This document shows positions 49,514 to 61,890 of a stretch of DNA of 64,000 bases, piece after piece (within the stretch, counting starts at the first letter, position 1; every line of letters begins with the position of its first letter). Origin of the DNA: Clostridiales bacterium (GTDB taxonomy: Bacteria > Bacillota > Desulfotomaculia > Desulfotomaculales > VENG01); the NCBI GenBank assembly GCA_016278505.1, contig JADQBQ010000002.1, forward strand, positions 153,638 to 217,637. Reading direction: 5' to 3'. Below the pieces are notes generated by a model. It was given only the letters and a program-made list of their open reading frames with translations, did no database searches and was not told the origin of the DNA. A program made the translations under genes and the position numbers.

Positions 49514-50822
49514 TCACCTCGGAAATTCGGAAATAGTATTTCCATTTAGATCATAGAGTGCACCCGGGTCACCCTGGTTGTTCCAAATATTTTTATTTGT
49601 CCATACCAGGGAATTGGTGCCGGCCTGCGCATCGGGTCCACTCTTTACTTTCAAGGTCTCCCCAGGAGTTATTACTGTCCCTGCAGGGAAATTAAATGCT
49701 TGGTCACCTTTCTGGCTGACTAGCTCCCATCCGGAAAGGTCTACCGGCTCGCTGCCGGTATTATTTATAGTAACTATCTCGCTTCTCAGGTCTATACCTA
49801 TTATCTCCACGCTGCTGGATATGGAAACATTGGCTGGCGCTTTTGCATCGGCAGTCGAAGTATCCGGGCTATGCTCTTGCACCGGTTCTTCATTAAATAT
49901 TATATTCTTACCATCACTGGTGGCCACGATAGTCCCCTGCTGGTAAGTGGTAAAAACTTGAACTCCTGCTGAAGCAAGCTTGGCCAGGGTTTCGCCATGC
50001 GGGTGACCATAGTCATTGTCTTTACCAGCAGAAATAATTCCGTATTCAGGGGATACAGCATTTAAAAATGCTGTTGTGGTGGAGCTGTGAACTGCCGTGG
50101 TGTGCCACTTTTAGTACATCTGCCTTCGGGTTTTGCCCGGAGGACAACAGCATTTCTTCTTCCGATTCAGCCTCGGCGTCACCTGTAAACAAAAAGCTGG
50201 TGCTGCCATAGGTAAGTTTTAGTACTGCACTATAGTTGTTAAGACCATCGTAACTGGATTTGCCGGGAGCAAGGAAAACTGCATCAACACCGGAAACAGT
50301 GTCTAGTTTAATACCTGTTTTAGCCTCAGTAACTTTTAGGTCCTTATTTTTAATTGCCAGAAGCAGGTCTTCGTAAGTTTTGGTGTTGTGGGACACCCTG
50401 GGCAGGTATATCTTGCCGGTATCAAAAGTTTCTATTACTACATCGAGTCCGCCTATGTGGTCTTCATGGGGATGGGTTCCAATAACATAGTCCAGTTGAT
50501 TAACTCCCTGCTGTTGAAGATAGTTTACTACAAGGTCTGCATCGGTATTGTTACCGGCGTCGATTAATATATTTTGCCCATCCGGCAGTTGAGCCAGGAT
50601 TGAATCCGCCTGGCCCACATCTATAAAGTGAACTATAAGAGCTTCATCAGTTTCTCCCGAAGCAGGTTTCTGCTCCCCGGAGGGATAGTTCTGACTCTCG
50701 GCAACAGGGTTTTGGTTTTCAGATGTTATTTGATTGTCTGACGAACTAGAGCACCCTGTAACTAACACTGCAATACTTAATGCCGCCATAAAAATAAATA
50801 TTAATTTTGCTGAATGTCTCAT
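49514..50822 (-). pseudogene. MBL-fold (ComEC-like) lipoprotein with a lamin-tail domain, frameshifted
   Basis: The N-terminal part (from 50,822) has a lipoprotein signal with lipobox VTGC, then a metallo-beta-lactamase domain like the ComEC C-terminal domain (FIDVGQADS, GTHPHEDHIGG, TGDAEAE, VAHHGSS). After HHGSS the frame breaks at about 50,082-50,086, where one extra base (AGTTCAC in place of AGTCAC) would explain it. In the next frame the protein continues STTTAFLNAVSPEYG, GKDNDYGHPHGET and a lamin-tail domain with LSGWELVSQKGD. It may hydrolyse extracellular nucleic acid. The shift is a real mutation or a sequence error. Confidence 0.82.
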
Positions 50823-50884: not shown

Positions 50885-51139
50885 CTAAATTAAAACAACT
50901 CTTTTGAACCCACTCGCAACACTGTCCAATCGATTTATCTGCTCAACAATAAACTCCGCTAACCACCTATTCGGTATAGCCTCGAAGCCCCAGTAAACCC
51001 CAGAAAGACCACCAGTGAGTGCTCCAATGGTATCAGCATCACCACCCAGGTTAACGGCACTTACCACGGCCTCTTCAAAAGAAGTCCCTTTAAAAAAGCA
51101 GGACAGAACACAGGCCAAAGAATCGACGGTATAACCACT
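50885..51139 (-). pseudogene. ADP-ribosylglycohydrolase gene, C-terminal part (split by IS21)
   Basis: The frame from the insertion border reads SGYTVDSLACVL and then GGDADTIGALTGGLSGVYWG, the second metal motif of the family. The N-terminal part lies at 53,646-54,376. Removing the insertion and one copy of the 5-bp duplication restores one uninterrupted frame (LDPSGYTVDSL). Confidence 0.88.
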
Positions 51140-51211
51140 TGTAACCGGTAAAATAAACTTAACAACTTTAGGCAAATAAGAATCAACACTATTTACCACA
51201 AAGCACCAATT

Positions 51212-51249
51212 CCTATATGATTGAGCTGGAAAAAAATCAATCATATAGG
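51212..51249. repeat. 12-bp inverted repeat in front of istA
   Basis: CCTATATGATTG and CAATCATATAGG with a 14-base spacer end 9 bases before the istA start, overlapping its ribosome site. It could hide the site in transcripts entering from outside. Confidence 0.6.
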
Positions 51250-51258
51250 GAGCGGCAT

Positions 51259-52852
51259 ATGAAACGAGAAGAAAGGTGGCAAATGTACTCCAGAATCCAT
51301 GAATTAAAGAGACTTAATCTTAAAGTGTCTCAGATTGCAAGGCATGTTGGAGTTTCCAGAAATACTGTTTACAAATACATCAACATGATGCCGGAAGAAT
51401 ATCATCAATACCTGGAGAGGAGGGAAACAAGAAAGAAGAAGCTTGATGAATATGAAGGTGAAATACTGGGCTGGCTAAAAGAATATCCTGATCTATCCAT
51501 AGCCCAGGTTTATGACTGGCTGCGAGACGAACACCCTAAAATTAACATGTGTGAAAGAACCGTTGGGAATTTAGTTAACCAATTGAGAAAGGAGTATGCC
51601 ATACCGAAAACTGTGTATAAAAGACAATATGAAGCTATTCCTGACCCGCCTATGGGTTACCAGGTACAAATAGATTTTGGTGAAAAGAAACTCAAAGATC
51701 CTGAAGGAACATTACACAAACTGTGGTTTATTGCTTTCGTGCTCTCAAACTCCCGGCAAAAGTACGTAGAGTGGCTAGACCGGCCATTTACTACGGCAGA
51801 TTTAATAAGAACACATGAAAATTGTTTACGGTACTACGAAAATGCCGGTGGAATTTGTGTACGACCAGGATCATGTTGTACTGGTAAGTGAAAACCATGG
51901 CGACTTAATATACACCTACGAATTCGCAGCCTATCGGCAGCAAAGGGATTTTAAGATCCACATGTGCAGGAAAAGTGATCCGGAAAGTAAAGGCCGCATC
52001 GAAAATGTAGTTGGTTTTGTTAAGAAAAACTTTGCTAAACACCGTATCTATTACAATCTGGACAAGCTTAACGAACAAGTCCTGGATTGGCTGAAGCGCA
52101 CGGGAAACGGCAAAATGCACAACATTACAAAGAAAATACCGGCCGAAGTGTTTTTAGAAGAGAAAAAACACTTAAGACCGGTACCAACCACAATATCTAT
52201 CAAATTAGCTAACGGTAGTATATCAAGGTTGGTAAGGAAAGACAACACTATATCATTTAAAGGAAACCGTTATAGCGTTCCCCTTGGCACATATGACGGC
52301 ACGGAAAAGTACGTAAAGGTTTATGTTGAAGATAAAGACATGCTGGTTATCGGTGACATAGAAACTGACTTGGAAATTACCCGCCACCATCTCTGTCACG
52401 CAAAGGGGAAGCTTATTAAGAATAATAATCACGGCCGTGACCGGTCGAAAGGTATCCCTGAGTACATTAAAACGGTGGCAGAGCTCTTGGGTAACACAAA
52501 AGAGGCCAGGGACTTCTTAGAAAGGATATACGAGCTTAAACCCCGGTATATAAGGGACCAGCTGCAATTAATCAGCAGTGAAGTAAAGGATGTAAATAAC
52601 AAAACTATTGCCATAGCCTTGAATTATTGCCGGAAATACAAACTTTACAGTGCAACTGATTTTACAGATGCTTTAACGTACTTTGTGGCTCAAGACATAA
52701 GTGTAATACAGATAGCAGCCGCAGGAGAACAAGAGTCAGATATTAAGATGCTGGATGAAAAAGATGTTCTTAACCTAAAAATCAAGCCCCAAACTAGGGA
52801 TGTTAAGGTTTATCAACAAATAGCGAGCGGAGAGATGCCATGCAACAACTAA
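51259..52852 (+). pseudogene. istA: IS21 transposase istA, broken by a one-base frameshift
   Basis: The first frame (51,259-51,891) gives the HTH (VSQIARHVGVSRNTVYKYI) and the first DDE aspartate (VQIDFGEKK). The second frame (from 51,815) supplies the second aspartate (VYDQDH) and the glutamate (GRIENVVGF). Removing one A from the AAAA run at 51,839-51,842 joins them into YYEMPVEFVYDQD. The needed shift is +1, unlike the usual -1 programmed shifts of insertion sequences, so a mutation or sequencing error is likely. Confidence 0.85.
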
Positions 52853-53595
52853 ATAATGAATTAAAACAGTACATGAAGACACTGCGAATTTCAGAGGCTG
52901 CCGGTATTCTTGATACCCTGCTGATGGAAGCTGAAAAGAAAGGGTTTACCTATCAGGAGTTTTTATGCAAATTAATCAAGCATGAGGTAAAGATGCGGGA
53001 TGAAAAGTCTATGGGAAGGCGGCTTAAACAGGCTGCCTTTCCGGAACACAAGACGCTTGAAGAGTTTAATGTAAATGAACAAGAATCTTTGAGCAAAAAA
53101 CAGCTCAAACAGCTTAAAGAGCTACAATGGCTGGAACAGGCGTATAATTTGATACTGCTGGGTCCACCAGGTGTTGGTAAAACCATGATTTCTATTGGCC
53201 TTGGGTTTGAGGCGGTGTACAGTGGCTATAAAGTTAGTTTTATAACCATGGATGAGCTAGTACAGGTTCTTAAAACCCAGGAAATCACGCGTGGCTCTAA
53301 AACAAAACTGAAGCGTATTATTGCCTCAGACCTAGTCATTATTGACGATTTAATGTTTTTAGCCATGGATCGTCATGAGGGTAATCTATTCTTCCAGCTA
53401 ATTAACAAGCTTTATGGCCAGTCCTCAGTGATAATAACTTCTAACAAAGGCCCAGAGGATTGGAGTGAATTAATAGGCGACAAGGCGATAGCTACTGCTA
53501 TATTAGATAGGCTTATTCACAGAAGCGAGGTAATAAACCTTGCTGGTGACAGCCACAGGATGAAGCACAGGGAAACCATTTTTGGTAATAACTAG
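52840..53595 (+). CDS. istB: IS21 helper ATPase IstB
   Basis: A 251-residue AAA+ ATPase of the DnaC/IstB type. Walker A GPPGVGKTM near residue 110 and Walker B LVIIDDLMF near residue 168 are intact. It overlaps istA by 13 bases and chooses the target site for IstA. Complete. Confidence 0.93.
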   Translation: MQQLNNELKQYMKTLRISEAAGILDTLLMEAEKKGFTYQEFLCKLIKHEVKMRDEKSMGRRLKQAAFPEHKTLEEFNVNEQESLSKKQLKQLKELQWLEQAYNLILLGPPGVGKTMISIGLGFEAVYSGYKVSFITMDELVQVLKTQEITRGSKTKLKRIIASDLVIIDDLMFLAMDRHEGNLFFQLINKLYGQSSVIITSNKGPEDWSELIGDKAIATAILDRLIHRSEVINLAGDSHRMKHRETIFGNN

Positions 53596-53645
53596 GTGTT
53601 AAATCTTATTTGCTAAAATTTGTTCAAAGTTACTTGACAGTCACA

Positions 53646-54376
53646 CCACTGGGGTCCAGATCATCGTATTGCCGTTTTTCGATATCAAAAAGCTTATCAA
53701 GAACCAGCTTTTCGGCAACATTAGAAAACTTAGCCGGTACTACTTCCAGAAATGTATCTTTTGTCTTTTCCCACGCTACTACCTTATTAGTAGTGCCGGA
53801 AATAAACTCCCGAGCTAAAAGGCTATATAAACAACAAGTTAAGCCAGCTTCCGGGTCCCAGTGTGTCATGCGCGCAATCATCATACTCATCATATAAATA
53901 TCAGCAGGATCTTTGTACATAAATGCAACAGGCAGAGTTCTCATTAATGCTCCGTTGCCAGCTGTAAGACCCTCTTCTTTATGTATTTCCTCAGCGGCCT
54001 TTTGCCAGTTCTTTAGTTTATTATACTTTCTTATAGCAAGCCTAGTAAAAAGGCCCATGGCTGGATGGTCAATCTTGGCAAACTCAATAAAATTTTCGCC
54101 AATACGCCTTACAGGATCATGGGGGTTGGCAAGTATCCCTTTCGCAACGGCAATAGTCATTGCGCTATCGTCTGTCCATTCACCAGGTTTTAGCCCTAAC
54201 CAGCCACCGCCAACGATGTCCCTTAATTGGCCATGTCTTCTTTTTATTTCTTCTTTAGAAAGATACTCTACAGTGGATCCTAATGCATCGCCTACTGCCA
54301 AGCCAAACATGCCTCCGTGGATTCGGTTCAGGGATACCACCCCTCTCAAGTGAAGTTCATTGAAGCCCAGTTGCAA
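53646..54376 (-). pseudogene. ADP-ribosylglycohydrolase gene, N-terminal part (split by IS21)
   Basis: The frame contains GLAVGDALGSTVEY, EWTDDSAMTIAVAKGILANP and the conserved TGNGALMRTLP-like AGNGALMRTLPVAF. It runs into the insertion sequence after LDPSG. It is a relative, not a copy, of the intact gene at 19,604-20,527. The start is uncertain; the frame opens at 54,376, and GAGAGGGGTGG stands before codon CTG near 54,330. It lies downstream of the sigma factor operon on the same strand. Confidence 0.85.
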
Positions 54377-54706
54377 GAAAATCTTGCTGGAAGTTTCAAC
54401 TCCTTTTCTTCTTTATAAAAGTGAATTGTTCCTTTAAAACTAAGACCAGTGTTTCCGCCCATTAAAAAGTTGAATACCGGCATAACCCCCTGTGCCAGTT
54501 TCTTGATGGTCTTGTCCTTCACGTTTTGCATAAATGATCAGCTCCTTATTGCCAAATCTAAAGTGGAAACCCGTGAACAAAAACCCACGCTCATCCTGGT
54601 TAATTTTAATTATAAGATACTCAAATAACTCCTGCTGTCCGATATGGCGATATGCTATTGTTTTTTCTAGAAGATTTGCATTATACTCTAAGCATGGTCC
54701 ATCCAG
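54346..54706 (-). pseudogene. small gene downstream of the sigma factor, probably frameshifted
   Basis: An open frame without a normal start directly follows the sigma factor stop (LDGPCLEYNANLLEKTIAY, ELFEYLIIKINQDERGFLF, GNKELIIYAK). A second frame from ATG 54,531 (NVKDKTIKKLAQG, MPVFNFLMGGNTGLSF) continues it if one base is removed from the AAAA run near 54,525. Together they give about 115 residues with no known family. Alternatively only the 61-residue frame at 54,346-54,531, which has AAGGAG upstream, is made. Confidence 0.4.
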
Positions 54707-54716
54707 TAAATAGAAT

Positions 54717-55844
54717 TTAATAATCTAATTTTAATATTCTTGCCCTGGATGGATGCCTGAGTTTCCTAAAAACTCTTGCTTCTATCTGTCTAATCCTTTC
54801 TCGCGTTAGATTAAAGATTTGACCAACTTCTCCTAAGGTTCTAAATTTTCCATCCTCCATCAAACCATATCTCCACTTAACAACCTCGCATTCCCTATCA
54901 GTTAAGGTAGCGAGAACTGTTTCAATATTTTGTTTTAAATTTCTTCGCTTTTCCTCACCAACAAGCATGTCCATCAACTCACCATTATCGCTAAAAACAA
55001 AGCTATCTAGTTCATTATCTAAGATTTCCTCAATACTCAATGGTTCTTCCAAAATATCTAGATACTTTTCTGCAGTATCTTCCCCAACACAAAACTGCTG
55101 GCATATATCATTAATTAGCAGCGGACAAAATCTTATGCGATAACACTCTTCACAACTATGTTGATTTTTTAAGTCAATAACTTCATACATTTTATTTTTT
55201 ATATGTGCTGGCAAATAATACTTATTGCTTATCCCTTGCGTTGAACGATCTATATTTTGTCTAATCCACCAAGGTGCATAAGTAGAAAACTTAATTTCTT
55301 GAGGGATTTTTTCAAGCGCAATCACTAACCCAGTATTAGCATCCTGTATGGTTTCATCTAAAGGCAATGAATATTTTTCAAAGTACCATAGGGCTATCCT
55401 CAATGCTACTTTCAAATACATGGTTATTATACGCTCTTTGGCGTAAGCATTATTATCTTTTGCGTGATAAATTAGTGTAGCTTCCTCCTTCCGCCGGGGA
55501 GGGGGAAGGACCTTAACCTCATCGATATAATTTGTTAAGGACGGGTCGAGGCTAATGACTTTATTAAATATTGCATTGTAATCAAGTTTACTTCTGTCAT
55601 AAGAATATTCTTCAAACTCGTCATCTTGAAACTGATAATCTTCTTCCCCATCTCGGATAATTATCCCTCTGCTAGTCAAAATTTCACAGAACCTATCGAT
55701 CTCATCTATGGGAAAATCAACATCATCAATAGACTTAAGGACATCATCGATTAAGATATATCCTTTAATCATTGAAAGCGCTGTAAGTTCTTTAATTATC
55801 AGCTGTTTTCCTTGCTCCATACTTGTCATATTCACCACTACCAT
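54717..55844 (-). CDS. primary-type sigma-70 factor with a five-cysteine insertion
   Basis: A 375-residue RNA polymerase sigma factor. The N terminus resembles region 1.1 of RpoD (LSMIKGYILIDDVLKS ... FCEILTSRGIIIRDGEEDY). Region 2 is divergent (FSTYAPWWIRQNIDRS near residue 187). Region 4 is strong (LTDRECEVVKWRYGL, FNLTRERIRQIEARVFRKLR). In region 3, residues 231-252 carry five cysteines (CEEC, C, C, C), an insertion not found in housekeeping factors and suited to zinc or an Fe-S cluster. It starts one base after the preceding gene and closes the putative defence operon, so it may redirect polymerase to element promoters. Confidence 0.85.
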   Translation of the reverse strand: MVVVNMTSMEQGKQLIIKELTALSMIKGYILIDDVLKSIDDVDFPIDEIDRFCEILTSRGIIIRDGEEDYQFQDDEFEEYSYDRSKLDYNAIFNKVISLDPSLTNYIDEVKVLPPPRRKEEATLIYHAKDNNAYAKERIITMYLKVALRIALWYFEKYSLPLDETIQDANTGLVIALEKIPQEIKFSTYAPWWIRQNIDRSTQGISNKYYLPAHIKNKMYEVIDLKNQHSCEECYRIRFCPLLINDICQQFCVGEDTAEKYLDILEEPLSIEEILDNELDSFVFSDNGELMDMLVGEEKRRNLKQNIETVLATLTDRECEVVKWRYGLMEDGKFRTLGEVGQIFNLTRERIRQIEARVFRKLRHPSRARILKLDY

Positions 55845-56381: not shown

Positions 56382-58376
56382 TCACCTCGTCATAAGATAG
56401 GTCTCAAATTCATTTTTTTTGTCAAACAAGTATCGCCTACCAACTTTCGCACCCATATTATCTTCTGCCAGTTCGCCATCGGTATCTTTAATAAAGATAA
56501 TAACCTGTTCTGCAATCTTAGGCAGCGCATCACAGACAGTTTTAATTCTGCGCTTATCAAAAGCAGATAATGGAGCATCCATAACAAGAGGATATGGTTC
56601 TGAATCCAACATTTTCGTTTCAGCATCTGTTGCGCTACTGTTCTCTCTCGCCATCTTGATTATACCTGAAATGAAAGCAAAGATAACGGAGATGCTCTGA
56701 GCCGTTGAAGTCTCTACATCGGTATTATAACCATCAAACTCCTCTACAAACGCTTGAATATTGTACTTTTCATCAATAGTAACTGACAATCCACCTTTAT
56801 AAATACCCTTGAAGATTTTGTTGATGCTTTTTTCCAACTTCTCCCTGGTCAGATTTTCGTTATGTTTATACGCCTTATCGATTTCGTTATACATATACTG
56901 TGCATATGCCTTATAGATTTCAATCTTTCTATTATTCTCATCGCGAAGCGTTAATTCAGCCCTTTCCGTGATTAAACGGTCCCGGGAAGTTTCCAATGCA
57001 CCTTTTTTACGGTTAAGCTCGTCTCTTTCAGTTTGACGATTCCTGATTATTTTTTCATACTTCATTAAATCTCGTTGAACAGTAGCAAATTCTTCCTTTC
57101 CAATTAATTTCTTTTCAATTAATTGGATTTGGTTTTTCTGCTCATCAATTCTATTTTCATAATCTCTAACCAAAGCATACTGCCCAGATATGTCATCAAA
57201 TAAACTAGTAGAAGATTTTGTCCTCAACTCTGATTCTTTGATGAAATGTCCGATAGAAACTCCTATAGATTGAGGAGGTATAAACGCTAATGCATTATTT
57301 AATTCTTTATATGCGTCGTTGCCAAATTCTATTTTTGTTCCACAGACACACTCACCACGCTTAATTAAAAACTCGATGGTACGAGCGTGCATGTCCGGAA
57401 TTCCCTTGTCCAGCTTATCTGCCTTTGACAAGCTCTCCAAAGCATCTTTAATCATCGACTTAGCAAAATACGAGGAAGCATTTGTGTTGAAATGCTTAAG
57501 CAAAGTAGCTATAGCCGAGGATTTTGCCTGCTTCGTTTGGTCAACAGTATTTTTGAGCTTTTCTTTTTCCTTCTGTAACTTTTCGCTTTCCGCGTTCATG
57601 GTTAGCTTTAATGAGAGCTCTTCACATTTATCCCTTGCCAGTTGTACTTCGGTTTCTATCTCATCAAGTCGTGAATCTATATTTCTAATGTTATCCTGCT
57701 TTTCTTCTATATCTCTAGTATACAGGGCTATCCGTTCATTACTGGAAGAATCGTAGCTTTCATTATAGCTTCCGATAACACCATACTTTGAAGTGGGTTT
57801 TAAATGTTCTAGTGCGGAAATAAAAGCATTTAAGCCTAGCAACCCCCGCACTGCTTGGGCAAACTCTTGGCTTCTTCCTTTTTTAACATCCTTGCTCATA
57901 TTCCCAATACGCTCACCATCAAAGAAGAAATACCTTGAAAGCTCTTTCGGTAAAATTTGCTTCATTCTAACTTCTGCTTCGAGGGGTTTAAGAAATTCCT
58001 TCTGTCCATCCTTTTTATATGAGATATTGAAGGAGGTATTTGATGCCTTGATTTTGCCGGTTAAATCTTTCTTATATACCTGTTCCCGGATGATAGTATA
58101 GTCTGTTCCGCTGTGGGTTAGATCTAAATCAACCCGTACCCGACTCTCGTTATCGGGTAACATTTGACCTTCGACAATCTTGTTTAGCATTAATTTATCA
58201 TCAAAGTCTGTGTCCCCATAGAGGCACCAGGAAAAGGCCTGAGCAAGCGTTGTCTTGCCGGATCCATTTTCACCCATGATGACCGTTACATTCTTATCAT
58301 CATCAGTGGCAAATAAAATCTCTTGTTCACCTTTAAACTGCCGAAAATTCAATAGTTTTAAGGATTTTAGTAGCAT
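56382..58376 (-). CDS. DndD-like SMC/Rad50-type ATPase
   Basis: A 664-residue protein with head-coil-head design. Walker A GENGSGKTTLA lies near residue 35, the conserved RYFFFDGERIGNMSKDV near 155, a long coiled coil interrupted by a CVCG motif (zinc-hook-like) near 340, and Walker B YPLVMDAPLSAFD near 598. DndD of phosphorothioate systems has this layout and the FFFDGE motif. It may provide ATP-driven DNA handling for modification or restriction. It overlaps the small gene upstream and the 176-residue gene downstream by a few bases. Confidence 0.8.
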   Translation of the reverse strand: MLLKSLKLLNFRQFKGEQEILFATDDDKNVTVIMGENGSGKTTLAQAFSWCLYGDTDFDDKLMLNKIVEGQMLPDNESRVRVDLDLTHSGTDYTIIREQVYKKDLTGKIKASNTSFNISYKKDGQKEFLKPLEAEVRMKQILPKELSRYFFFDGERIGNMSKDVKKGRSQEFAQAVRGLLGLNAFISALEHLKPTSKYGVIGSYNESYDSSSNERIALYTRDIEEKQDNIRNIDSRLDEIETEVQLARDKCEELSLKLTMNAESEKLQKEKEKLKNTVDQTKQAKSSAIATLLKHFNTNASSYFAKSMIKDALESLSKADKLDKGIPDMHARTIEFLIKRGECVCGTKIEFGNDAYKELNNALAFIPPQSIGVSIGHFIKESELRTKSSTSLFDDISGQYALVRDYENRIDEQKNQIQLIEKKLIGKEEFATVQRDLMKYEKIIRNRQTERDELNRKKGALETSRDRLITERAELTLRDENNRKIEIYKAYAQYMYNEIDKAYKHNENLTREKLEKSINKIFKGIYKGGLSVTIDEKYNIQAFVEEFDGYNTDVETSTAQSISVIFAFISGIIKMARENSSATDAETKMLDSEPYPLVMDAPLSAFDKRRIKTVCDALPKIAEQVIIFIKDTDGELAEDNMGAKVGRRYLFDKKNEFETYLMTR

Positions 58377-58578: not shown

Positions 58579-60723
58579 TTACTTTTCGTACAGGTTATAA
58601 GCATCCTTAATCTGCTGAATGACCACATCGGCCTCCATTTCATTCATTGCTATTCGTGAAAATTCCTCCGCTCGGTTTAACTCATTTCTTATTAGCGATA
58701 AGTCTTTTTTCATTTCATCAAGGGTAAGCGATGATACCTCATCTAGTGGCCTTGGAGTAGTAATAAAATCATAAATCTCAGCAAAGTCTTTCCCCTTGGC
58801 TAATCGTAAGACACGCCCACGTCTCTGGATATACTCTTTGGGGTTTGTCGTACTAGCCAAAATGAATGCCACTTTGATTTTGGGAATATTAACACCTTCG
58901 TCCAAGCATTTGATAGCAATCAAAGCTTGAAGGTTATCTCCTTCTTCAAATTCTCGCTTGAGGATTTCTCTTTCCTCAACATCTTCTTTTGATGTAAATT
59001 GTGATACCTTCATATTAAGTTCTTTACCTAGTAATAATGTGACTGCATCGATTTGGCGGATATCATCGTCTTCAACTGGTGTATAGTCATCATTGTCACC
59101 GAGCAAGGACGCAGCGCCACAATATACCAATATATAACTCTGGTTTAAATAAGGATTGATAAGCTCGCGGAGCTTATCAATCTTTGCATCTGCTGCTGCT
59201 ACGAGCCTTGCCCTCTTAAGTGCAATTCTCTCGCCTTTTTTAGAAAGTCTCAACTTACCGTTTTTACCTTTAATCAAGCACTTACCCATTTCTTGTGATA
59301 AGAAAGAATATTCCTGCAACTCCTTTTCTGAAAGGTTGACAAGCACAGGATAGTACTTGTAAGGCGTAAGCTTGTATTCTTCAATAGCTCTTTCCAAAGG
59401 GTATTCGATACATTTCTTTCCAAAGTAACTTTTAAGCTTCTTTGTGCCTTCCTCATCGTTATGACGTTCCAATGTTGCTGATAATGCCAATCTAAAATTA
59501 AAAGTTTCGGTAAGCATTGAGCTTAATCTTTCTGAACCAAAATTATGTGCTTCATCTACAACAAGCAGCGCATTGCCTTTTATTTTTGAAAGTTGTTTTT
59601 GAACAAATTCCGATGCGAAAGTAGCATTAGTACATACAAAGCAGTAGAACTCTCTATTCTTAACGTTTAATTTTTGGTCACGAATTGCGTTTTCCAGCTT
59701 ACGCTTCCAGTCACGCTGCGGGGAACTACTATAACCAATAATAGGGTTAATATTAAACTTCACAATATCTTCAACCCATTGTTCAACTAAATGCTGAAAT
59801 GGACAAACAATTATAACTGCAAGTTGGTACTCACAATGGCTATACAACTCTACTATAGCTCCCAAACCAGTATAAGTCTTACCAGTACCTGTAGCCATAT
59901 CAAAAATTCCTCGGAAATCATATTTAACCCACTCATCGATTGCTCCTAGCTGGTAATCGTGAAGACGTATCCCTTTAGGAACGCATGGTCCCTTAGGGAC
60001 CAAATTATGGTTGACGTAAAAATACTCAGTTTCGTCTATTTGCATATCTATCGGCCCTTGTTTGTATGTTTGGAGTTTTTCACTGGCTACCTTAGGAAAT
60101 TCCACGATACTAACATTAGGTTCATGGTCATTCCAAAGCGTGTTAAAAGCTATATCCTTTGCCCTGACGCGAGCATTGTCTTCGGTCCAGGAACAAAACA
60201 CATCAATAGTTTCGTAGTTGTGCATAAAAGCAGTAGAAGTTTCATTCATGGAGCCGGTAAAAGCAACAATATTGTCTTTCTCGTCGTAAAGAAGCCCCAT
60301 CTTCTCATGGTAAATACCAACACCGTCAACTGCCTCAGTAAAGGCGATCTTAATGTCTAAACGTCCCTCGGCGATCAAATTGGCTAGCATGTTTAGCCGT
60401 TTCTCTTCAAAGAGGTCGCGTGGTTCTGTTATGGAATTGAGTACGGCACGTTCAATCACATGAACTCGTTCTTCGTAACCTATGGTAATTGCCTTTACAT
60501 CCCCATCCTGTAAATTTGGGGATGCTATCAACATTATGCGACCGTCATTTTTAATAAGGCCAGTTATACCGCGGGAAATTTCAATTAGGGCTGATGATGA
60601 GAAGAAACCCACAGCACGTTTATATAACACTGCATTTCGGAGAGTTGGAATATAAAAATCCGTAACAACATTATCACATAGCGAACGGTATTCGGACTTG
60701 ATGCTTAACCCCCGAAATCCCAT
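58579..60723 (-). CDS. SF2 helicase with an N-terminal phospholipase D-like domain
   Basis: A 714-residue protein. The N-terminal 200 residues look like a PLD nuclease (HEKMGLLYD ... FTGSMNETSTAF, the HxK-GSxN half-site). Residues 260-690 are a DEAD/DEAH helicase: DMATGTGKTYTGLGA, LLVVDEAHNFG, LALSATLERH and QRRGRVLRLAKG. Such fusions occur in many defence loci and may unwind and cut foreign DNA. ATG 60,723 has AGGGGGG 7 bases upstream; the first T of that site lies in the stop codon of the desulfurase gene. Confidence 0.88.
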   Translation of the reverse strand: MGFRGLSIKSEYRSLCDNVVTDFYIPTLRNAVLYKRAVGFFSSSALIEISRGITGLIKNDGRIMLIASPNLQDGDVKAITIGYEERVHVIERAVLNSITEPRDLFEEKRLNMLANLIAEGRLDIKIAFTEAVDGVGIYHEKMGLLYDEKDNIVAFTGSMNETSTAFMHNYETIDVFCSWTEDNARVRAKDIAFNTLWNDHEPNVSIVEFPKVASEKLQTYKQGPIDMQIDETEYFYVNHNLVPKGPCVPKGIRLHDYQLGAIDEWVKYDFRGIFDMATGTGKTYTGLGAIVELYSHCEYQLAVIIVCPFQHLVEQWVEDIVKFNINPIIGYSSSPQRDWKRKLENAIRDQKLNVKNREFYCFVCTNATFASEFVQKQLSKIKGNALLVVDEAHNFGSERLSSMLTETFNFRLALSATLERHNDEEGTKKLKSYFGKKCIEYPLERAIEEYKLTPYKYYPVLVNLSEKELQEYSFLSQEMGKCLIKGKNGKLRLSKKGERIALKRARLVAAADAKIDKLRELINPYLNQSYILVYCGAASLLGDNDDYTPVEDDDIRQIDAVTLLLGKELNMKVSQFTSKEDVEEREILKREFEEGDNLQALIAIKCLDEGVNIPKIKVAFILASTTNPKEYIQRRGRVLRLAKGKDFAEIYDFITTPRPLDEVSSLTLDEMKKDLSLIRNELNRAEEFSRIAMNEMEADVVIQQIKDAYNLYEK

Positions 60724-60735
60724 CTTCAATCCCCC

Positions 60736-61890
60736 CTAACTGTTAATGCGGATGTATTCTAGTGCTTCCCGTAAAGCGTCTACATCTGCTTCCGTATTGA
60801 AGTAACTCACGCTCAGCCGAACCGTGCCGCCAGGAAAAGTTCTAATAAAGCGGTGCGCATCCGGCGCGCAATGTAGCCCGGTTCTCACAGCAATGTCAAT
60901 ATCACTAAGAATTTGACCTATGTTGTTGCTACTATATCCTTTAAATACACAAGATATCACCCCGATACAATCAGCCCGCGGGAGAATTAAATCAACAATG
61001 TCAAACTCCTGTAAGCACTTAATAACCTGCTTATATATTGCTTGTTCCTTTTCGTATATAGCCTGTATGCTAGTTTTTTCGATCCATTGCAAGGCTGCGT
61101 TTAATCCTGCAATAGACTGCACATTCAGACTACCTACCTCAAACCGCTCCGGGACAGTGCTAGGTACGTTAGGGTTGGAAGAATCTATACCGGTGCCCCC
61201 CAAAAGCAAAGGACGTAGAGGTGAGTTACTATCAGTGATAAATCCGGCAACACCAAAAGGACCATATAACGTTTTGTGCCCAGCAAACACGGCATAATCC
61301 ACCGAAATACCACCAAGATCCGTATCTATCAACCCCGCGGTTTGTGCCATATCCACTATGATTGTGGTTTTGTATTGTTTAGCCAAACTAATAATTTCTT
61401 TAATGGGTGTAACCAAGCCGCACACATTGCTAGCGTGGTTCATAATTAATACGTCCGGGCGCGCATCTTGAAATTGATATTCAATGGCCTCTAGGTCATA
61501 GCATAAATTATTGCGATCCACATTTAATTGGATAATTCTAAGATTATAAATAGAACGTAAATAGTGGAGTACACGAAGCACAGCATTATGTTCAAAGGGA
61601 GTTATATATATTGTTTGCCCGTCCTGCCAATCCAGACCCCGTATCACAATATTTAGGGCTTCAGTAGCAGAAGCCGTAAAAACAACGCGTTTTTGCGTAG
61701 GACAACACATGAGCTTTAGCATCCTATTACGTGTGTCGTCCACAAGAGCTGCAACTTCTGCCGCCCTTTTGTATTGGCCACGACCTAAACTCACACCTTT
61801 TTCTCGATAAAAAGTATCCATCATGACATAGACTTCTTCCGGCTTAGGCATGGTGGTGGCAGCATTATCAAAATAAACCATCCTACTCAT
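60736..61890 (-). CDS. cysteine desulfurase (DndA/SspA or Csd type)
   Basis: A 384-residue fold-type I PLP enzyme. YFDNAATTMPKPE starts the protein, the PLP lysine is in FAGHKTLYGPFG near residue 208, and the active cysteine lies in RTGLHCAPDAHRF near residue 340. It takes sulfur from cysteine as a persulfide. In phosphorothioate systems a desulfurase (DndA or SspA) feeds the DNA sulfur modification; its location within this operon supports such a role. A housekeeping Fe-S role is the alternative. Confidence 0.85.
   Translation of the reverse strand: MSRMVYFDNAATTMPKPEEVYVMMDTFYREKGVSLGRGQYKRAAEVAALVDDTRNRMLKLMCCPTQKRVVFTASATEALNIVIRGLDWQDGQTIYITPFEHNAVLRVLHYLRSIYNLRIIQLNVDRNNLCYDLEAIEYQFQDARPDVLIMNHASNVCGLVTPIKEIISLAKQYKTTIIVDMAQTAGLIDTDLGGISVDYAVFAGHKTLYGPFGVAGFITDSNSPLRPLLLGGTGIDSSNPNVPSTVPERFEVGSLNVQSIAGLNAALQWIEKTSIQAIYEKEQAIYKQVIKCLQEFDIVDLILPRADCIGVISCVFKGYSSNNIGQILSDIDIAVRTGLHCAPDAHRFIRTFPGGTVRLSVSYFNTEADVDALREALEYIRINS

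Follow-up and report, generated by a model that had tools for sequence, protein, structure and literature searches.

An RpoD-derived sigma factor encoded directly after pbeD in one subtype of the PbeABCD phosphorothioation-linked defence system

Why should an operon with a cysteine desulfurase gene end in a gene for a sigma factor, and why should that factor carry a tight cluster of cysteines? The question is raised by a 64,000-nucleotide stretch of a Clostridiales bacterium genome (the window), in which an open reading frame on the reverse strand encodes a protein of 375 amino acids, seven of them cysteines, that we refer to as sigma-Pbe (Table 1). An earlier note on this DNA had taken the protein for a sigma factor with a five-cysteine insertion in region 3 that might bind a metal or an Fe-S cluster and act as a redox- or sulfur-responsive switch. 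The true start of sigma-Pbe is probably the ATG at 55829 and not that at 55844, because its relatives start there and GGTGA precedes it; all residue numbers used here would then drop by 5. Pfam detects sigma-70 region 4 (55.6 bits, cut-off 24.1, E 3.6e-15) and region 2 (27.9 bits, cut-off 24, E 2e-6), domains that place the protein among the sigma-70 factors, but region 1.1, which the earlier note had counted alongside these two, stays below its cut-off (16.2 against 22.5 bits). The AlphaFold model (mean pLDDT 82.2, pTM 0.45) matches structures of SigA proteins, the best solved relatives, with E-values down to 7.5e-15. As in RpoD and SigA, regions 2, 3 and 4 follow one another in order, with a nearly identical -35 helix and a weakly detected region 1.1. 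Sigma-Pbe is nevertheless not the housekeeping factor: the host's own RpoD is encoded elsewhere and is about 35% identical, and sigma-Pbe reaches only 176.5 bits against the 572-bit cut-off of the NCBIfam RpoD equivalog. It differs from RpoD and SigA in an H-x-C-x2-C-x5-C insert, in its region 2.4 and 3.0 contacts, in the loss of the sigma finger and in belonging to a defence operon.

Table 1. Sigma-Pbe, its cysteine features and the genes upstream of it in the operon.
Feature	Coordinates in window	Strand	Remarks
RpoD-like sigma factor (sigma-Pbe)	54717..55844	-	375 aa as given; 370 aa from the likely start at 55829
Five-cysteine stretch, Cys231-Cys252	55089..55154	-	Cys248 and Cys252 not conserved as ligands
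H-x-C-x2-C-x5-C motif (His229, Cys231, Cys234, Cys240)	55125..55160	-	In the turn between sigma-3 helices; from alignment, motif check and AlphaFold secondary structure
PbeD-like protein, 179 aa	55846..56385	-	Assigned by position and size only; ends one base ahead of the sigma ATG at 55844
PbeC, DndD-like coiled-coil ABC ATPase	56382..58376	-	PADLOC PbeC, E 1.5e-106
PbeB-like small protein, 54 aa	58367..58531	-	Assigned by position and size; overlaps the start of pbeC
PbeA, PLD/HKD nuclease fused to SF2 helicase	58579..60729	-	PADLOC PbeA, E 1.1e-243; TIGR04095, E 1.7e-153
Cysteine desulfurase, SspA/DndA-like	60736..61890	-	Pfam Aminotran_5; PADLOC SspA/DndA
SspC/BrxC-like ATPase, 1214 aa	61921..64000, continuing past the window end	-	Complete in L033, 8702-12346

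Phosphorothioate-based defences are known as systems that join modification to restriction. The sigma gene is the last in an operon that holds PbeABCD-like genes and a complete Ssp-type phosphorothioation module; reading upward from it, the order is PbeD-like, PbeC, PbeB-like, PbeA, desulfurase and the SspC/BrxC-like ATPase, and further upstream lie DUF4007/SspB and a PAPS reductase that is BrxP/SspD-like and carries a ferredoxin end. Homologues of PbeA and PbeC thus stand in one operon with homologues of SspA, SspB, SspC and SspD, the last of these matching BrxP best and then SspD. The PbeB-like and PbeD-like genes match no profile (for PbeD, neither Pfam nor PADLOC) but are conserved, with the right size and in the right place, in all loci examined. 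The fold model of the PbeD-like protein (pLDDT 43) was too low to use and was discarded, so that the kinship of PbeD to DndE rests on synteny and the literature. The same operon order is found in L044 and L144, where genes were named by eye, while the Bacillus locus has the sigma gene between pbeD and sspB and the Desulfallas locus L043 has a DndB-like protein and a desulfurase ahead of pbeA (both identified by eye). The desulfurase had been thought to fit a sulfur-responsive sigma factor, but it belongs to the Ssp-type phosphorothioation module and, as part of a full module of this kind, can be explained without any tie to the sigma factor.

Downstream of the sigma gene, positions 54377-54716 look like coding remnants, beyond which an IS21-like element with a two-ORF transposase, within 50885-54376, splits an ADP-ribosylglycohydrolase gene into an N-terminal part (53630-54376) and a C-terminal part (50885-51244; assigned by eye). 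The ends of the element are 29-nucleotide imperfect inverted sequences (51161-51189 and 53596-53624); its istA is apparently frameshifted at 51815-51891, and istB lies at 52840-53595. A few kilobases downstream of the sigma gene, positions 50046-50822 encode what appears by eye to be a secreted MBL-fold, ComEC-like protein, and the locus of the closest relative of sigma-Pbe has one in a similar place (L034, 12282-13520). Near the island, about 9-13 kb past the window end (L036, 2-3911), an OLD-like ATPase/TOPRIM gene is followed by a UvrD-like helicase gene, a pair that by eye resembles the Gabija type.

We find that the place of the sigma gene in this operon is fixed. Among 299 genomes of the phylum we found two close relatives that are clearly separate from RpoD (55% and 44%); a GTDB species scan added four more genomes, and searching with a profile of pbeD, the gene next door, led to two further members, giving, with the window's own, a family of nine distinct sigma factors from genomes of several classes. 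These form a single clade relative to RpoD and phage-borne sigma factors (support 100/99) in a tree from which the insert columns were left out. Viral contigs and phage and plasmid records yielded ordinary RpoD-like sigma factors or nothing, and no sigma-Pbe, and an origin from a phage or plasmid is therefore without evidence. In all nine members the sigma gene lies directly 3' of pbeD. Eight of these loci have PbeD scores above 300 bits, a range in which every locus has the sigma gene, and the ninth scores 218 bits; by contrast, no sigma gene follows pbeD in any of the 13 more distant loci whose PbeD scores below 160 bits and whose 3' sequence can be read. We left L048, L158 and L161 out of this count, as these loci end before the slot. 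In the distant loci the slot is taken by another protein or lacks a large ORF; its occupants include a DUF262-like protein (labelled by eye) in L051, L053 and L159, an unknown protein of roughly 340 amino acids in L059, L145, L156 and L157, and others. The slot after pbeD thus appears to be exchangeable and filled according to PbeD subtype. Since the close PbeD loci have the sigma gene and the distant ones other occupants or none, sigma-Pbe marks one subtype of PbeABCD, and that it is, as a matter of anatomy, a dedicated sigma factor of this subtype is well supported.

With respect to the cysteines, the five residues lie exactly where they had been placed, at 231, 234, 240, 248 and 252 in region 3. 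Their compactness is borne out, five of the seven cysteines falling within 22 residues (P about 0.0007 under random placement), as is the absence of such a cluster from housekeeping sigma factors, since none of 25 RpoD-like controls has at least two cysteines in the homologous stretch. The CxxCx5C spacing has a P of about 0.0015 when seven cysteines are placed at random. Alignment with eight housekeeping RpoDs of the same phylum, one of them the host's own, could have revealed no insertion at all; one does exist, but it is small: in the turn that joins helices one and two of sigma region 3, sigma-Pbe is longer by a net five residues. In the AlphaFold model this part of sigma-Pbe has helices at 213-228 and 241-251 and, between them, a helix of four residues (232-235) with coil on either side, the first coil being short. 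Comparison within the family redraws the cluster: Cys231, Cys234 and Cys240 are kept together with a fourth conserved residue, His229, which the earlier note had missed, but two of the five cysteines are not conserved and three of the nine members fail to keep the pattern. Cys248 occupies the position of a conserved alanine in the region 3.1 helix-turn-helix of RpoD; the other sigma-Pbe subclade has serine there and a cysteine five residues on, at a hydrophobic helix-turn-helix position. Both cysteines are poor candidates for ligands because these are alanine or hydrophobic core positions. Cys252 is absent from even the closest relative of sigma-Pbe. We considered a cluster with five ligands and rejected it, since neither Cys248 nor Cys252 is conserved and both fall on core positions of the helix-turn-helix in the alignment. 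The earlier observation, then, is partly confirmed, being real but mis-described, and a metal site at H-x-C-x2-C-x5-C, with zinc the most likely metal, is plausible from the conserved ligand pattern.

The motif is exact in five of the nine members (those of the window, L034, L042, L043 and L058), and L041 has a variant, C-x2-C-x2-C-x5-C, with a histidine beside the second cysteine. The members from Bacillus and Acetobacterium have a degenerate form, L040 having the histidine and two cysteines and L044 two cysteines, and the motif is absent from L144; in all three cases the sigma gene still follows pbeD. L144 is the deepest branch and falls outside two subclades that each mix intact and decayed motifs, so that the simplest reading of the motif's history would be one gain and two decays (three changes on the tree). 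With the quartet decayed in two members and missing from a third, a metal is not something that the whole family requires. This distribution bears on the switch that had been proposed. Three conserved cysteines with a histidine or a fourth cysteine could hold an Fe-S cluster, and several family members come from anaerobic lineages, but there is no fourth cysteine at a conserved place and the desulfurase is accounted for by DNA phosphorothioation. Above all, because the Bacillus, Acetobacterium and L144 members keep the sigma gene without an intact motif, a cysteine switch cannot be the shared function; the redox or sulfur switch is not supported, and we consider it improbable that the motif holds an Fe-S cluster. 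Less probable still is that sigma-Pbe is an ordinary alternative sigma factor, a mere passenger of the island with functionless cysteines. That only three of the five cysteines are conserved and that the motif has decayed in two members would be expected of a passenger, but a passenger would hardly lie directly after pbeD in nine of nine members of a single clade across several classes, nor keep the cysteine spacing across two subclades.

We next consider what the remainder of the protein suggests. All regions of primary-type sigma factors align in sigma-Pbe. Region 4.2 is almost unchanged relative to RpoD, with the -35 helix TRER[IV]RQI present in all nine members, the core-binding segment IQ(D/E) of region 2 is kept, and the tryptophan pair of the melting motif is found in eight of nine, L144 having LW. 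Other landmarks are gone: region 2.1 is without the EANLRLV motif, region 2.4 without ADQARTIR and region 3.0 without the VETINK contacts (L144 being nearer RpoD in regions 2.4 and 3.0), and region 3.2 no longer has the sigma-finger motif DSHLGDF. Read against sigma-70 factors in general, this pattern predicts that -35 recognition is kept, because region 4.2 is almost unchanged, and that -10 recognition is changed, because the contacts in regions 2.4 and 3.0 are; efficient initiation is not assured, because the finger is lost. A look for shared promoter motifs upstream of element genes had been proposed as a check. We searched upstream of seven sigma-Pbe operons and found no common promoter, and the L044 operon has a sigma-A-like one (TTGCCA-17-TAGAAT).

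Our preferred reading, to which we assign a probability of roughly 0.45, is that sigma-Pbe is an RpoD-derived sigma factor dedicated to one PbeABCD subtype of phosphorothioation-linked defence, in which it serves as a fifth component and ties transcription to that system. Tight coupling of the two genes would cause sigma-Pbe to be made together with PbeD; it would bind the RNA polymerase core through its retained region 2 and direct the polymerase to promoters that combine a TTGACA-like -35 box with a non-standard -10 element, and the transcription of defence-related genes may thereby be tied to the Pbe system. The H-x-C-x2-C-x5-C motif, which stands in place of the turn joining the first and second sigma-3 helices, would likely bind one zinc ion and stiffen that turn. 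The quartet with its short spacings, and the position of the two variable cysteines in the helix-turn-helix core, appear to count in favour of this reading; the want of a common promoter, the lost sigma finger and the members in which the motif is degenerate or absent appear to count against it.

Ranking close behind a transcriptional role is the possibility that sigma-Pbe has no part in transcription and is instead a DNA-binding subunit, derived from a sigma factor, of the PbeBCD machine; it would place the ABC ATPase or nuclease by reading -35-like or promoter sequences or by sensing RNA polymerase. Such a subunit would account for the invariant coupling to pbeD and for the lost finger, and an exchangeable slot that elsewhere holds unrelated proteins, such as the DUF262-like one, is what might be expected of an accessory or specificity subunit; sigma-type helix-turn-helix domains also have precedents in DndH (PMC10853773) and BrxL (PMC12839542). 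On the other hand, a subunit of this sort would not need the whole sigma architecture, including the core-binding segment of region 2 and the two tryptophans kept in eight of nine members. We are more doubtful of a further idea, that the metal-knuckle sigma factor of Pbe defence couples the detection of foreign or unmodified DNA to RNA polymerase, either to switch on a defence transcription programme or to target phage promoters engaged by the polymerase.

PbeABCD has been described, with pbeB, pbeC and pbeD essential, in a paper in which the word sigma is not mentioned (PMC6459918); it was later reinterpreted as a CxC ABC-ATPase/DndE system with the HKD-helicase PbeA, in a paper that uses the word once, for a domain of DndH (PMC10853773). 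The locus described here shares with PbeABCD the genes for PbeA, a small PbeB-like protein, PbeC and a PbeD-like protein in the same order, but it has a fifth gene, for the sigma factor, after pbeD (compare PMC6459918 and PMC10853773) and modification genes of the Ssp type in place of DndCDEA. Type 4 BREX phosphorothioation modules, together with the sigma-helix-turn-helix-like domain of BrxL, have also been described (PMC12839542). Like these and SspABCD, the module in our operon comprises a cysteine desulfurase, DUF4007, an SspC/BrxC-like ATPase and a BrxP/SspD-like PAPS reductase with a ferredoxin end, but it is coupled to PbeABCD-like genes and sigma-Pbe and not to SspE, SspFGH or PglZ/BrxL; neither PglZ nor BrxL had a match among the operon proteins scanned. 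The MZA defence system likewise has a sigma-70 factor, MzaA, within its operon (PMC9523054). Residues 145-380 of a 385-residue reading of sigma-Pbe match the MzaA profile of PADLOC, but the score for the MzaA equivalog is 150.8 bits, where 800 would be needed, and the partners of MzaA are MzaBCDE and those of sigma-Pbe the PbeABCD and Ssp genes. In the open-access literature we found no sigma factor associated with PbeABCD or SspFGH, and a literature search for a metal-binding sigma region 3 returned nothing on point.

A sigma factor fixed beside pbeD provides a concrete and testable link between phosphorothioate defence and transcription. If true, the knuckle of one histidine and three cysteines in region 3 would also be an uncommon variation on the sigma fold.
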